Part shown: positions 17,026 through 34,832 of the stretch, piece by piece | Numbering within the stretch: position 1 is the stretch's first letter | How the letters are laid out: each line of letters opens with the position of its first letter | Source: Patescibacteria group bacterium | Lineage (GTDB): Bacteria > Patescibacteriota > Patescibacteriia > JAHIZJ01 | Direction of reading: 5' to 3' | Length of the DNA: 34,832 nucleotides | Assembly: GCA_028714495.1 (NCBI GenBank) | Contig: JAQTMH010000001.1 | Coordinates: forward strand, 309,036 to 343,867 | The notes under the pieces: model-generated | Database searches by the model: none | Told to the model about the DNA's origin: nothing | The model's input: only the letters and a program-made list of their open reading frames with translations | Program-made: the position numbers and the translations under genes

Positions 17026-17062
17026 GAATCATACTATTCGAAGTTTTTAAAAACTTTTTGCA

Positions 17063-17084
17063 GGCGAGGATGGTCATCCTCGCC
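17063..17084 (+). terminator. hairpin after tRNA-Glu, overlapping the tsaD promoter
   Basis: Stem GGCGAGGAT (17063-17071) with ATCCTCGCC (17076-17084) and a 4-nt loop, followed only by TTT. A second AT-only stem (AAGTTTTT/AAAAACTT, 17041-17056) precedes it. It may end or process the tRNA transcript. Its 3' arm lies between the tsaD -35 and -10. Confidence 0.4.
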
Positions 17085-17099
17085 TTTGGCGTATATAAT
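17071..17099 (+). promoter_or_regulatory. tsaD promoter, apparently leaderless
   Basis: TGGTCA (17071-17076, 4 of 6 to consensus), a 17-bp spacer and a perfect TATAAT (17094-17099). The normal start distance of 6-7 nt falls on the tsaD ATG itself at 17106. Confidence 0.65.
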
Positions 17100-17105
17100 A
17101 GTGAT

Positions 17106-18101
17106 ATGAAAATCCTAGCCATCGAAACTTCCTGCGATGATACTTCGGTCAGCCTGGTTAATATTGCCAAGGGACGCGTAACCGTTCTCTTGGAAGTTGT
17201 TTCGTCCCAGGTGAATATCCACGCAAAATACGGCGGGGTAGTGCCAGAGGTCGCGGCCCGGAAACACATTGAAAACATCGGCCCGATTCTCAAGGCCGTT
17301 CTAGCCAAACATCCCAGCCGATCAATTGATCGCATCGCCGTTACAACCGGACCGGGTTTGATTACTTCGCTACTGATTGGCGTTGAGACTGCCAAAACGC
17401 TCGCCTATGCCTGGGACAAGCCGATTGTCGGTATTAACCACCTTGAAGGCCATATTTTATCCTGTTTGATTGACTCAGGAAAACCGAGGTTCCCCGCGAT
17501 TGCCTTAGTCGTGTCTGGCGGCCATACGCTGCTGGTTCTGGTAACTAGAATCGGAAAATATTCTATTATCGGTCAAACTCAAGATGACGCGGCCGGCGAA
17601 GCCTTTGATAAGGTGGCCAGGCTATTAAAGCTCGGCTACCCGGGCGGCCCGATTATCGAAAAGCTGGCCCGAAAGGGGAACCCAACCGCTTTTGATCTGC
17701 CCCGGCCCATGCTTGAACAGAAAAACTTTGATTTCAGCTTTGCCGGACTGAAAACCGCCGTGCTCTATCTCTATCGAGACGGAAAAATACCCCGCGGCAA
17801 AATCAATGATTTGTGCGCTTCTTTCCAACAAGCGACAGTTGACGTTTTGGTTTCAAAAACTATTAAGGCCGCCAGGAAATATAGTGCCAAGTCTGTCCTG
17901 CTCTCTGGCGGCGTGGCAGCCAACCAGCTACTTCGATCCGCGCTCAGCCGACAAGTGAAGAATGGCCTGGGTCGTCCGTTTCATGTTCCCAAAGCCAAAC
18001 ATTCAACTGACAATGCAACTATGGTAGCGGTGGCTGGCTACTATCACAAACCTATTCACTGGTCAAAGATAAGGGCTAATCCAAACTTGGAATTAAAATA
18101 G
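17106..18101 (+). CDS. tsaD: tRNA N6-threonylcarbamoyladenosine transferase TsaD
   Basis: 331 residues, family length. It transfers the threonylcarbamoyl group to A37 of ANN-decoding tRNAs in the t6A pathway, working in bacteria with TsaB and TsaE; TsaE is encoded at 26281. The N-terminal MKILAIETSCDDTSVSLV is the classic start. The metal ligands His112 and His116 lie in NHLEGHIL and Asp302 in TDNATMVA. GEAFDKVARLL (from residue 164) and SGGVAANQLLR (about 267-277) are the nucleotide-binding signatures. An in-frame ATG at 16965 lies inside tRNA-Glu and is rejected. ATG 17106 fits the family start and sits where transcription should begin, so the mRNA is probably leaderless; no Shine-Dalgarno is present. 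Confidence 0.96.
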   Translation: MKILAIETSCDDTSVSLVNIAKGRVTVLLEVVSSQVNIHAKYGGVVPEVAARKHIENIGPILKAVLAKHPSRSIDRIAVTTGPGLITSLLIGVETAKTLAYAWDKPIVGINHLEGHILSCLIDSGKPRFPAIALVVSGGHTLLVLVTRIGKYSIIGQTQDDAAGEAFDKVARLLKLGYPGGPIIEKLARKGNPTAFDLPRPMLEQKNFDFSFAGLKTAVLYLYRDGKIPRGKINDLCASFQQATVDVLVSKTIKAARKYSAKSVLLSGGVAANQLLRSALSRQVKNGLGRPFHVPKAKHSTDNATMVAVAGYYHKPIHWSKIRANPNLELK

Positions 18102-18110
18102 TATAAGAGG

Positions 18111-18138
18111 TATTTCGAAATCTTTAGAAATTTCGAAA
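18111..18138. repeat. 28-bp inverted-repeat element, copy 1 (candidate ArsR operator)
   Basis: Two 10-bp arms ATTTCGAAAT, each itself a palindrome, are separated by 8 bp. The copy lies between the tsaD stop and the arsR-type gene stop. It is identical over 28 bp to the copy at 18472-18499 on the other side of that gene. There is no T run, so it is unlikely to be a terminator. Confidence 0.8.
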
Positions 18139-18145
18139 TTCCATA

Positions 18146-18403
18146 TCAACCAACAATCTGCCGGAATAAACGCAATTGTCTGATTCTCTTAGGCACAGAA
18201 TACCAGGTTTCGTTCTTCCGCCGTTGCGCCTCAATATATCCTTCTCGGTACAATTTTCTAAGATGGTACGAGGCGGTTGAGTTTGCGATGCCCAGTTTTC
18301 GCGAGAGCTCTCCTACTGGACATTGGCCGGAATTAAGTAATTGAAGGATGGCTAGTCTCCGATCGCTTCCAAGGGCTTTGAATGTTGAAATTAGTTTTTT
18401 CAT
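18146..18403 (-). CDS. ArsR-family winged-helix transcriptional regulator
   Basis: 85 residues, short but complete: one winged helix-turn-helix with STFKALGSDRRLAILQLL at the N-terminus, recognition helix region ELSRKLGIANSTASYHLRKL (about 34-53) and a beta wing with KNETWYSVP (about 63-71). The only Cys (residue 28) is in the GQCPVGEL turn, and there is no CxC or His-rich metal site, so a classical metal sensor is unlikely. ATG 18403 follows a leader of about 33 nt without a Shine-Dalgarno. The gene is bracketed by identical 28-bp inverted-repeat elements, and the upstream copy touches its -35. I infer autoregulation and probably control of divergent valS. It is the only gene of 20 here that stops with TGA. 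The DNA target and any ligand are inference. Confidence 0.9.
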   Translation of the reverse strand: MKKLISTFKALGSDRRLAILQLLNSGQCPVGELSRKLGIANSTASYHLRKLYREGYIEAQRRKNETWYSVPKRIRQLRLFRQIVG

Positions 18404-18442
18404 TGTAAATAAAAATAATGGCAGTTACCCGTCATTAACTTA

Positions 18443-18470
18443 ATCATATACCCCCAATTCATTCTGTCAA
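18443..18470 (-). promoter_or_regulatory. promoter of the ArsR-type gene
   Basis: On the minus strand, TTGACA (complement of 18465-18470), 16 bp, then TATGAT (complement of 18443-18448). The inverted-repeat copy 2 ends one base upstream of the -35 box, an arrangement that fits direct repression or activation. Confidence 0.8.
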
Positions 18471-18471
18471 C

Positions 18472-18499
18472 TATTTCGAAATCTTTAGAAATTTCGAAA
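18472..18499. repeat. 28-bp inverted-repeat element, copy 2 (candidate operator between divergent promoters)
   Basis: Identical over 28 bp to 18111-18138. It lies exactly between the -35 box of the ArsR-type gene (18465-18470) and the -35 box of valS (18510-18515), so one bound dimer or tetramer could affect both promoters. Confidence 0.8.
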
Positions 18500-18509
18500 A
18501 TCCAAAAAA

Positions 18510-18538
18510 TTGACCAAATAGCCTTTTTTCAGTAAAAT
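18510..18538 (+). promoter_or_regulatory. valS promoter
   Basis: TTGACC (18510-18515), a 17-bp spacer and TAAAAT (18533-18538). The predicted start near 18545 gives a leader of about 26 nt. CAGGAG near 18541 lies about 25 nt from the ATG, too far and too close to the transcript start to act as a Shine-Dalgarno. Confidence 0.75.
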
Positions 18539-18570: not shown

Positions 18571-21219
18571 ATGCCCCAGGAACTCCCAAAAGCCTACGAA
18601 CCAAAAGAAGTTGAAAAAGCGATTTACCTGAAATGGGGAAAATCCGGCTTTTTTAATCCTGACAAATTGCCGGGCAAGCGCTCGAAAAACTTTTCCATCA
18701 GCCTGCCGCCGCCCAATGCCACAGGTATTCTCCATATCGGCCACGCCGTGATGCTGGCGATACAGGATTTGCTGATCCGGTTCGAACGGATGCGCGGGAA
18801 AAAGACGCTTTGGCTGCCTGGCACTGATCACGCGGCCATTGCCACGCAAAATGTGGTGGAGCAGAGTTTAAAAGCCGAGGGTAAGACCAAAAACGATTTA
18901 GGCCGTGAGAAATTCCTTGAGCGTATCAATGAATATGTCGCTTCCAAACGAAATTCGATCCGCGAACAAGTTGTTCGCCTAGGCTCGAGCTGCGATTGGT
19001 CCAGGGAGCGCTTCACGCTTGATGCCGGTTTATCAAACGCCGTGGTTACCGCTTTTAAAACCCTTTATGATGACGGTTTAATTTACCGGGGTGACCGCAT
19101 AGTAAATTGGTGCCCCCGCTGCCAATCCACCCTGGCTGATGACGAGGTGGAGTATATCGAGAAAAAGACGCCTTTTTTCTATTTCAAATACGGCCCAGTA
19201 GTGATCGGCACAGCCCGGCCAGAAACCAAGTTCGGAGACAAGGTTATTATTGTCCACCCAGACGATAAGCGCTATCAGAACATAGTCGGAAAAGACTTCG
19301 AGGTTGAGTGGATCCTGGGAAAAATTAAAGCCCGGGTAATCGCTGACCCGGCCGCCGATCCGGCCATGGGAAGCGGCGCCATGACCATTACGCCAGGACA
19401 CAGCTTTGTTGATTTTGAACTGGCTAAAAAACATAATATTGAAATTGAAAAAATTATTGACGAGCGGGGCTGCTTAACCGAAGCGGCTGGCGAAATGAAG
19501 GGCTGGCCAGTCCGTGAGGCACGAAAGAGGGTAGTGGAAATTCTCCGAGCCAAAGGCCTGATCGAAAAAGTTGACGAAAATTATATTCATAATCTCTCTG
19601 TTTGTTATCGCTGCAACACTCCGGTTGAGCCGCTGGTTTCCAAGCAGTGGTTCTTGGCCGTGGATCAGCCGACTAAACAGCTAAATGGAAAAACTCTAAA
19701 AACACGGGCGCTCGAGGTTATTGATAATAAGGAAATCGAATTCGTGCCTGAACGCTTTGGCAAAATTTACCTGCACTGGATGACCAATTTGCATGACTGG
19801 TGCATTTCGCGGCAGATTTGGTACGGCCATAGAATACCGGTCTGGCACCGAGGGAAAGAAATCGTGGTGAGCGGATCTAATCCAAAAGGCGAGGGCTGGT
19901 CTCAAGAAATCGACACTCTCGACACCTGGTTTTCTTCCTCCTTGTGGACTTTTTCCACGCTCGGCTGGCCAATAACAAAAGAGATTGGTTTTGATGCGTC
20001 ATTGGTTGATTTGGTGAAATCCGGAAAAAAGACAAAAACTTTTCGTTTGCGTGATCACGATCTTTCGGCCGGAGAAACGTGTTTCACGCACGACAGCAAA
20101 ACGAAAAAAAAGTTCGGGTACTTACATATTGTTCGCGCCACCAAAATACGGTTTGACGAGATTGAGCTTCACGCGGTTGGCCACGAACCATACAAAAGTC
20201 GCGCCGAACTGAACACGACATTTCAAAAATATTACCCGGACATTGCGATCACGTCCGACACGCCGGTGTGGCTGTACGAGTTTGTCTATCAAAAAAAATC
20301 GGATTTAGAACTATTTCATCCCACCTCAGTCATGGAAACCGCCTACGATATTATTTTCTTCTGGGTGGCGCGGATGATTATGATGTCCACTTACCTGGTT
20401 AAGGAGATACCCTTCAAAACCGTTTATTTTCATGGATTAGTCCGTGATAAAAAAGGTCGGAAGATGTCCAAATCTCTTGGCAACGGTATTGACCCATTAG
20501 AAATGGCTGATAAATACGGGGCAGACGCGGTCAGGTTAAGTTTAATCATTGGCACCTCGCCGGGTAACGACCAAAAATTAGACGAACAGAAAATCGCCGG
20601 CTACAGAAACTATGTTAATAAGGTTTGGAATATCGGCCGCTTCTTGGCAATGCAGACTAAGGGGAAAAAACTTAATCAGCCGAAAATTAAATCATTGGCT
20701 GATAAATGGATCATTAGCCAGCTTCAATATTTTTCACAAGTAATCACCACAATTGGGCTTGAGCGTTATACTTTTTCTCCTGTTGGTGAATCAGTTTACG
20801 AATTTACTTGGCATTTTTTCGCTGACTGGTATCTCGAAATCGTAAAAGTTGAGGGTAATGTCGCGCTGGCCAAACATATCTTTGGCATCTTGCTTAAGCT
20901 GCTCCACCCCTATATGCCGTTTGTCACTGAACACCTCTGGTCAATCCTTAAATATGATGAGGGATTATTGATGATCGCTCCGTGGCCCGATTCTGGAAAA
21001 GACTTTCTTGGCTGGAAAGATGACAAAAAAACCCGTGAGGATATTGAAATGGAGTTTAGTGAATTAATGAAGGCGGTAATTGACTTCCGCCGCCAGCGCA
21101 AAGAAGCTGGCACTCCAGCTGGTCAACCATGTGAAGTAAAACTTGACGCAAAAAGCCCACTGTGGCAAGATCAAGCGATAATTGAAAAGCTGGCTCGTGT
21201 TAAATTGGTAAAAGCCTAA
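18571..21219 (+). CDS. valS: valine--tRNA ligase with an inserted ASCH-like domain
   Basis: 882 residues. It charges tRNA-Val with valine. Class I signatures are HIGH as HIGH at 55-58 (ILHIGHAV) and KMSKS at 631-635. The CP1 editing domain is present (ARPETKFGD near residue 216), as is DTWFSSSLW (451-459). Cys motifs CPRC (about 185) and CYRC (about 351) are kept. Between the catalytic strand ending STLGWP and the helix FHPTSVMETAYDIIFFW, where most ValRS have about 10-15 residues, there are about 105 extra residues (about 474-578). They read as an ASCH/PUA-like domain: VDLVKSGKKTKTFRLRD fits the GxKxxxxR signature, and the domain ends with VWLYEFV. The C-terminal coiled-coil tRNA-binding arm of longer ValRS is absent; the protein ends at KLVKA. 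No Shine-Dalgarno. A 405-residue gene starts 11 bp downstream. Confidence 0.96.
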   Translation: MPQELPKAYEPKEVEKAIYLKWGKSGFFNPDKLPGKRSKNFSISLPPPNATGILHIGHAVMLAIQDLLIRFERMRGKKTLWLPGTDHAAIATQNVVEQSLKAEGKTKNDLGREKFLERINEYVASKRNSIREQVVRLGSSCDWSRERFTLDAGLSNAVVTAFKTLYDDGLIYRGDRIVNWCPRCQSTLADDEVEYIEKKTPFFYFKYGPVVIGTARPETKFGDKVIIVHPDDKRYQNIVGKDFEVEWILGKIKARVIADPAADPAMGSGAMTITPGHSFVDFELAKKHNIEIEKIIDERGCLTEAAGEMKGWPVREARKRVVEILRAKGLIEKVDENYIHNLSVCYRCNTPVEPLVSKQWFLAVDQPTKQLNGKTLKTRALEVIDNKEIEFVPERFGKIYLHWMTNLHDWCISRQIWYGHRIPVWHRGKEIVVSGSNPKGEGWSQEIDTLDTWFSSSLWTFSTLGWPITKEIGFDASLVDLVKSGKKTKTFRLRDHDLSAGETCFTHDSKTKKKFGYLHIVRATKIRFDEIELHAVGHEPYKSRAELNTTFQKYYPDIAITSDTPVWLYEFVYQKKSDLELFHPTSVMETAYDIIFFWVARMIMMSTYLVKEIPFKTVYFHGLVRDKKGRKMSKSLGNGIDPLEMADKYGADAVRLSLIIGTSPGNDQKLDEQKIAGYRNYVNKVWNIGRFLAMQTKGKKLNQPKIKSLADKWIISQLQYFSQVITTIGLERYTFSPVGESVYEFTWHFFADWYLEIVKVEGNVALAKHIFGILLKLLHPYMPFVTEHLWSILKYDEGLLMIAPWPDSGKDFLGWKDDKKTREDIEMEFSELMKAVIDFRRQRKEAGTPAGQPCEVKLDAKSPLWQDQAIIEKLARVKLVKA

Positions 21220-33918: not shown

Positions 33919-34832
33919 ATGAAATTTTCCTGTCTCCAAGAACATCTAAACAAGGGACTTAATCAAGTCAGTCATCTGGCAAGCAAAAATGTTTCTTTGC
34001 CGATTTTGAACAACGTACTGATTTCTTGCGAGAAAGGCATTATAAAACTTTCCGCCACTAATTTGGAAATGGGCATTAACACGATTGTTCGTGGAAAAGT
34101 TGATGAGGCTGGAAAAATAACCGTGCCAGCCAAAACCCTGGCCGACCACATAAATCTTTTGCCCGACGAAAAAATTGAGCTAACGAGCCAGGAAAACAAC
34201 CTATTGGTCAAAAGTAAAAGCACCCAAACGACAATTCGTGGCCAATCAGCCGATGAATTTCCGGTGATTCCGGTGGTTGAACAAAAAACCAGCCACGCGG
34301 TAAAAGCGAAAGATTTTAAAAAATCCATCGGTCAGGTGGTCTACGCGGTGGCCCAAGACGAATCGCGTCCAGAAATCAGCGGTGTTTATATAAAAATCAA
34401 GTCCGGTCGCGCGACCATCGTGGCTACTGATAGTTACCGCCTGGCTGAAAAAAAGACGCAATTAGCCAAGCCCAACGAACATGACGTCGAAGCTATTATA
34501 CCAACCCGAACGATCCAGGAGCTTGCCCGGATTGTTTACGACGACGCCAATAATCTTGAAATGTATTTTAGTGACAATCAGGTGATGTTTGTTTGTGAAG
34601 GAGTTGAGCTTATCTCGAGGATTATTGAGGGCCAATATCCAGACTACCGGCAAATAATCCCCCAGGATTACAAAACCGTGGCCAAGTTTTCTTGCGACGA
34701 GATGATCAAGGCGGTAAAAAGCGCCGCGCTCTTCTCTAAGACTGGGATAAACGACGTCAATCTGAAATTCAACGCCAAGGCGGGAAGAATTATGGTGTCT
34801 TCGGCCAACACGCAATTAGGGGAAAGCACTAC
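33919..34832 (+). CDS. dnaN: DNA polymerase III beta sliding clamp, 3' truncated by the window
   Basis: 304 full codons are visible and the frame is open at the window end; about 60-70 residues should be missing. The ring-shaped clamp tethers the replicative polymerase. It starts MKFSCLQEHLNKGLNQVSHL, with the usual pattern SLPILNNVLISCEKG (about 26-40), which opens domain 1. TTIRGQSADEFPVIP (about 104-118) closes it. Domain 2 has ESRPEISGVYIK and ATDSYRLAE (about 169-177). YPDYRQIIPQDY (about 242-253) marks the domain 2 to 3 transition. ATG 33919 has no Shine-Dalgarno. It follows dnaA in the normal order. Confidence 0.97.
   Translation, partial: MKFSCLQEHLNKGLNQVSHLASKNVSLPILNNVLISCEKGIIKLSATNLEMGINTIVRGKVDEAGKITVPAKTLADHINLLPDEKIELTSQENNLLVKSKSTQTTIRGQSADEFPVIPVVEQKTSHAVKAKDFKKSIGQVVYAVAQDESRPEISGVYIKIKSGRATIVATDSYRLAEKKTQLAKPNEHDVEAIIPTRTIQELARIVYDDANNLEMYFSDNQVMFVCEGVELISRIIEGQYPDYRQIIPQDYKTVAKFSCDEMIKAVKSAALFSKTGINDVNLKFNAKAGRIMVSSANTQLGEST

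Follow-up and report, generated by a model that had tools for sequence, protein, structure and literature searches.

Predicted operator sites on both sides of a small ArsR-type regulator gene in a Patescibacteria group bacterium

Background

Operators of SmtB and ArsR proteins are reported to be 12-2-12 imperfect inverted repeats that lie upstream of genes or inside them (PMC8790569). The locus described here carries inverted repeats of this form on either side of a small regulator gene. It is part of a window of 34,832 nucleotides (the whole stretch of DNA that was analysed) from a Patescibacteria group bacterium. Small-genome bacteria of this kind are mostly uncultured, and their gene regulation is little understood. 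The genome that contains the window measures 1.17 Mb and is 98.9% complete, and all of its class-mates are small-genomed.

The arsR Gene and Its Neighbours

The gene arsR occupies positions 18146-18403 on the minus strand and encodes a small ArsR-type winged-helix regulator of 85 amino acids. By its winged-helix HTH domain the protein is a member of the ArsR/SmtB family, matching Pfam HTH_5 with E = 2.5e-13 (50 bits, cut-off 22) and NCBIfam NF033788 with 62.5 bits (cut-off 55). It has a single cysteine (C28), which by eye does not align with the ELCVCD pattern, and no alpha-5 ligand pattern was seen when the sequence was read by eye. A metal-sensing cysteine or alpha-5 site is a criterion for metalloregulators, not for the ArsR/SmtB family as a whole. 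A scan of species genomes returned no close relatives of the protein.

The gene ends in a TGA stop codon. According to a preliminary description of this DNA, it is the only one to do so; this is true among the identified genes of the window, but an unassigned ORF at 33972-34328 also ends in TGA.

Two promoter-like sites lie between arsR and valS. The site for arsR (18443-18470, minus strand) reads TTGACA-16-TATGAT and is strong, with 11/12 matches, and the site for valS (18510-18538, plus strand) reads TTGACC-17-TAAAAT, with 10/12 matches. The valS gene itself (18571-21219, plus strand) codes for valyl-tRNA synthetase, with the Pfam domains tRNA-synt_1 and Anticodon_1 and orthologues in relatives. 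Residues 473-571 of ValS match an ASCH domain inside the catalytic part, in a region of poor alignment among relatives. On the other side of arsR lies tsaD (17105-18101, plus strand). The ATG at 17105 is its likelier start; the mechanical ORF start, 16965, is inside a tRNA-Glu gene.

The Repeated Element

The sequence TATTTCGAAATCTTTAGAAATTTCGAAA is found at 18111-18138 and again at 18472-18499. The preliminary description had placed a 28-bp element on both sides of arsR, and the two copies are indeed identical at 28/28 positions; the match lengthens to 33 bp at 97%, with one difference. The downstream copy, D (18111-18143, no strand assigned), is 2 bp past the arsR stop, where the 3' ends of tsaD and arsR converge on it. 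The upstream copy, U (18472-18504, no strand assigned), has the -35 box of arsR on one side and that of valS on the other. It had been described as exactly between them. Between them it is, but not midway, as the -35 box of arsR (18465-18470) is 1 bp from copy U and that of valS (18510-18515) is 10 bp away.

Every copy forms an imperfect inverted repeat of the 12-2-12 type, TTTCGAAATCTT-TA-GAAATTTCGAAA. Its arms pair at 10/12 positions in all three copies known from the genome, a level attained by 0.35% of composition shuffles. The arm sequences first given need one small correction, at the last base of the second arm, which in U is ATTTCGAAAA, not ATTTCGAAAT. The copies share 26 identical bases, the centre included. 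This exceeds what a regulator usually needs and suggests recent copying.

Copies in the Genome and Beyond

The genome contains exactly three copies of the element: D, U and a third copy, T, which lies on contig 3 at 71664-71690 (L038 3665-3691), in frame inside tgt. Neither D nor T precedes any gene start. A dispersed repeat, with many copies unlinked to promoters, had been named in the preliminary description as a finding that would refute its reading. The genome-wide search returned the three copies only, and a dispersed repeat is rejected on copy number. Chance is excluded: the number of additional 26-mer copies to be expected in the genome is about 2e-8.

When the genome was searched with a profile built from the three copies, no diverged copy emerged at E values up to 10, and two genomes of the same family gave no convincing copy. 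With up to three mismatches, the element is absent from 380 other genomes of the class. With two free positions, it is absent from about 85,000 species genomes, a set in which the window's own genome is possibly not included. A viral origin was also considered and rejected: the exact 26-mer is in no viral contig, and the ArsR protein has one weak phage match.

One alternative is that the element is a REP-like dispersed palindrome which flanks arsR by accident. The copy inside the coding sequence of tgt would agree with this, as would other dispersed palindromes of the genome, some of which end in GTAG or CGTC, as do those of known REP superfamilies. (Other repeats in the genome were sought by pattern and in selected stretches.) However, the element has exactly three copies, none of them diverged, and lacks a GTAG or CGTC tag. 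The layout described below is moreover specific to ArsR genes when compared with controls, and the site sequence follows the helix of the regulator. An accidental REP-like palindrome is therefore very improbable here.

Copy T encodes ISKFLKISK in a variable loop of the tgt product. Insertion of T into tgt is rejected, as tgt has no net length gain against its relatives. T is thus either a copy that displaced the native sequence or the native sequence itself, and codon usage does not discriminate between tgt and the spacer as the source of the sequence.

A Recurrent Layout around ArsR Genes

The arrangement of site, gene and site is found around many other small ArsR genes of the group, with a site sequence particular to each. 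In the class, 22 of 88 ArsR ORFs (86 loci) are bracketed by a pair of near-identical sites with a score of at least 18. One site lies upstream of the start codon, and the other mostly lies close to the stop codon. By the same measure only 4 of 189 control genes are bracketed (Fisher p = 7e-9), and at least one of these four has its sites in common with a bracketed ArsR gene next to it. Random windows gave one case in 1465 at a score of at least 17, by a slightly different measure. The other two ArsR genes of the window's genome are each bracketed by a palindrome of their own.

In the wider phylum, 12 of 27 new loci are bracketed. These loci were found with a profile of bracketed proteins, which favours similar proteins, so that the count demonstrates the layout in new genomes and is not an unbiased rate. 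In a tree, most bracketed genes belong to one clade; the window's arsR, its two paralogues and one more fall outside it. The layout thus arose, or persisted, in several lines. In these small-genome bacteria it appears to be a genuine regulatory design.

Some loci have features of their own. At L139, one palindrome occurs in four direct copies around arsR at short spacing, like a small array, with one site 70 bp before the arsR start and three beyond its stop, at distances of 73, 225 and 352 bp. At L014 (7-582, 579-854) and L027 (1480-1758), the operator-like sequence is also coding and provides the C-terminal SNSRE of the ArsR protein. At L014, the gene that precedes arsR also contains operator-like sequence close to its end, translated as SISNSRE.

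Sites and Recognition Helices

Cognate operators predict that a site should change together with the part of the protein that reads it. Across 34 bracketed loci, the similarity of the sites correlates with the identity of the recognition helices (r = 0.67). The relation persists after correction for similarity in the rest of the protein (partial Mantel r = 0.51, p = 0.0002, 34 loci), and the rest of the protein contributes little once the helix is given (0.17). Because the sites track the recognition helix in this way, the bracketing sites are very probably the cognate operators of their ArsR proteins. The set contains nothing closely similar to the protein and site of the window, the nearest helix being 53% identical, and the rule thus backs them by analogy only.

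For the present locus, D, U and T are predicted to be binding sites of the ArsR-type protein encoded between D and U. This interpretation is probably correct. The preliminary description had proposed operators, and comparison supports the proposal well, through the 12-2-12 form of the copies, the recurrent layout and the way in which sites follow the recognition helix. The small protein would bind all three copies. Since copy U adjoins the -35 boxes of both arsR and valS, the protein bound there would most likely control its own synthesis and might also control valS. The tie between the regulator and an aminoacyl-tRNA synthetase gene is a hypothesis, its one ground being the position of copy U. 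Binding, autoregulation and any effect on valS or tgt are all predictions read from the DNA. Together with copy D behind the stop codon, copy U would place arsR between two operators, in a unit like those seen repeatedly at small ArsR genes of this group. Weighing against this reading are the positions of D and T, neither of them ahead of a gene start, the long identity of the copies, and the other palindrome families of the genome, some of them inside ORFs.

There is an alternative candidate for the operator of arsR. A weaker imperfect palindrome, AATGGCAGTTACCCGTCATT, lies at 18417-18436 (no strand assigned), between the -10 box and the start codon of arsR. It is nearer to the start of the gene and could be the true operator. 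A TGACGGG motif is also present between promoter and start codon in all three ArsR genes of the genome (L008, L042 and L043).

The Role of the Second Site

Under the operator interpretation, copy D could act as a bridge to U, could block transcription leaving arsR or tsaD, or could be a remnant of the arrival of the unit. In some relatives, the second site lies ahead of the next gene, for example one that by eye is glpK-like or ribF-like, and in one relative three consecutive genes are preceded by such a site. In these relatives the second site may simply be an operator for the neighbouring gene. In the window and in the two relatives that were checked, the gene downstream of arsR converges with it, which rules out this role there. 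The second site keeps a steadier distance from the arsR stop (SD 24 bp) than from the next gene (SD 54 bp), a comparison biased toward the arsR stop because the arsR gene was the centre of the search.

DNA looping between D and U may be put forward as a hypothesis. In the class set, the two sites showed 10.5-bp phasing with p = 0.007, several periods having been examined. The signal did not recur in the phylum set (p = 0.66), and helical phasing was dropped as evidence for looping.

Alternatively, copy D could work at the RNA level, as a hairpin that terminates or protects transcripts of tsaD and arsR, independently of ArsR binding. Copy D does lie between convergent genes, and it folds on the two strands with -11.3 and -12.8 kcal/mol (z = -3.3 and -4.2). 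However, the region has no U-tract and no called terminator-like site, and a terminator was rejected for the latter reason. Copy U is upstream of both predicted promoters and would escape transcription from them. A hairpin also leaves the relation between site and helix unexplained, and it is a most unlikely account of copy D.

Evidence for and against Mobility

The direct repeats around arsR could also be the ends of a recombination event, in which arsR and one copy of the repeat (361 bp) entered the spacer between tsaD and valS. Such an event would be compatible with operator function. The preliminary description had raised a small mobile or recombined cassette, and the comparison of relatives at tsaD-valS is compatible with it. 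In a genome of the same family but another genus, tsaD and valS are direct neighbours, and the roughly 122 bp between them contain neither arsR nor the repeat; removing one 361-bp unit from the window would leave a spacer of 108 bp. In that genome, however, loss of arsR and the repeat is as possible as a site that was always empty. Related bracketed ArsR genes have unrelated neighbours, with no homologous adjacent genes, and in the set of bracketed genes the repeats are direct in 24 cases versus 4.

Against this, gene order is often lost between genera anyway. The single tyrosine recombinase of the genome, although encoded on the same contig, is far from this locus. The lack of a net insertion at T does not fit either, and a cassette would leave the site-helix relation without explanation. 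Entry of arsR by recombination is for these reasons considered unlikely. A broader and rather tentative proposal is that the small ArsR genes of the phylum may be self-contained units, each a regulator between its own two operators. Such units would move whole among unrelated neighbourhoods and capture new promoters, with both sites acting jointly on the gene between them.

Sites of a Sister Regulator

About eight more genomic sites carry the bracketing palindrome of a sister ArsR gene (L043), a CACCTTTTAGTTAAAAGGTG-like sequence. One is upstream of the queH promoter (L195 1192), another lies about 10 bp before the start of tgt (L038 4212), and a third is inside queA (L190 1102). The element of the window likewise has a copy in tgt. 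A queuosine regulon of the sister regulator is suggestive only, because the distance from queH to queA is no more than about 2 kb and other sites are near unrelated genes.

Caution is also advised by further families of palindromes of 24-29 bp in the genome, several with GTAG or CGTC ends and some inside ORFs (queA, queH). Such palindromes are located at L195 1430-1457, L190 816-839, L196 2226-2253, L043 3350-3377 and L191 1878, and at 17062-17085 of the window.

If the layout is regulatory, it pairs a palindrome with its regulator from sequence alone, so that regulons might be read directly from genomes; a first lead, from one sister site, is to the queuosine genes. The layout also raises a mechanistic question, namely why a second operator should be kept directly behind the regulator's own stop codon.

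Comparison with Known Systems

The dif sites and pdif modules are site-specific recombination sites of about 28 bp. The element resembles them in length, in having inverted arms that enclose an asymmetric 8-bp centre, and in forming direct repeats that flank one gene. It differs from them in having three copies, one of which is inside tgt, in a genome with only one tyrosine recombinase. Two of the three copies lie about 14 kb from dnaA and not at the terminus; the number of copies and the position near dnaA rule out a chromosomal dif site.

In REP/RAYT systems (PMC3733652), a gene for a DNA-binding protein likewise lies between short palindromes. Unlike these systems, the arsR product has no transposase domain, and the element has no GTAG or CGTC tag and only three genomic copies.

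The ArsR/SmtB autoregulators SmtB, ZiaR and AzuR (PMC8790569) share with this locus a winged-helix protein, a 12-2-12 repeat at the regulator's own promoter and a possible intragenic site. The open-access literature searched yielded no description of the recurrent operator-gene-operator layout. In contrast to SmtB, ZiaR and AzuR, the protein described here is by eye without the canonical metal-binding cysteine pattern, and a second, near-identical copy of the repeat lies directly behind the stop codon of the regulator, where it serves no downstream gene.
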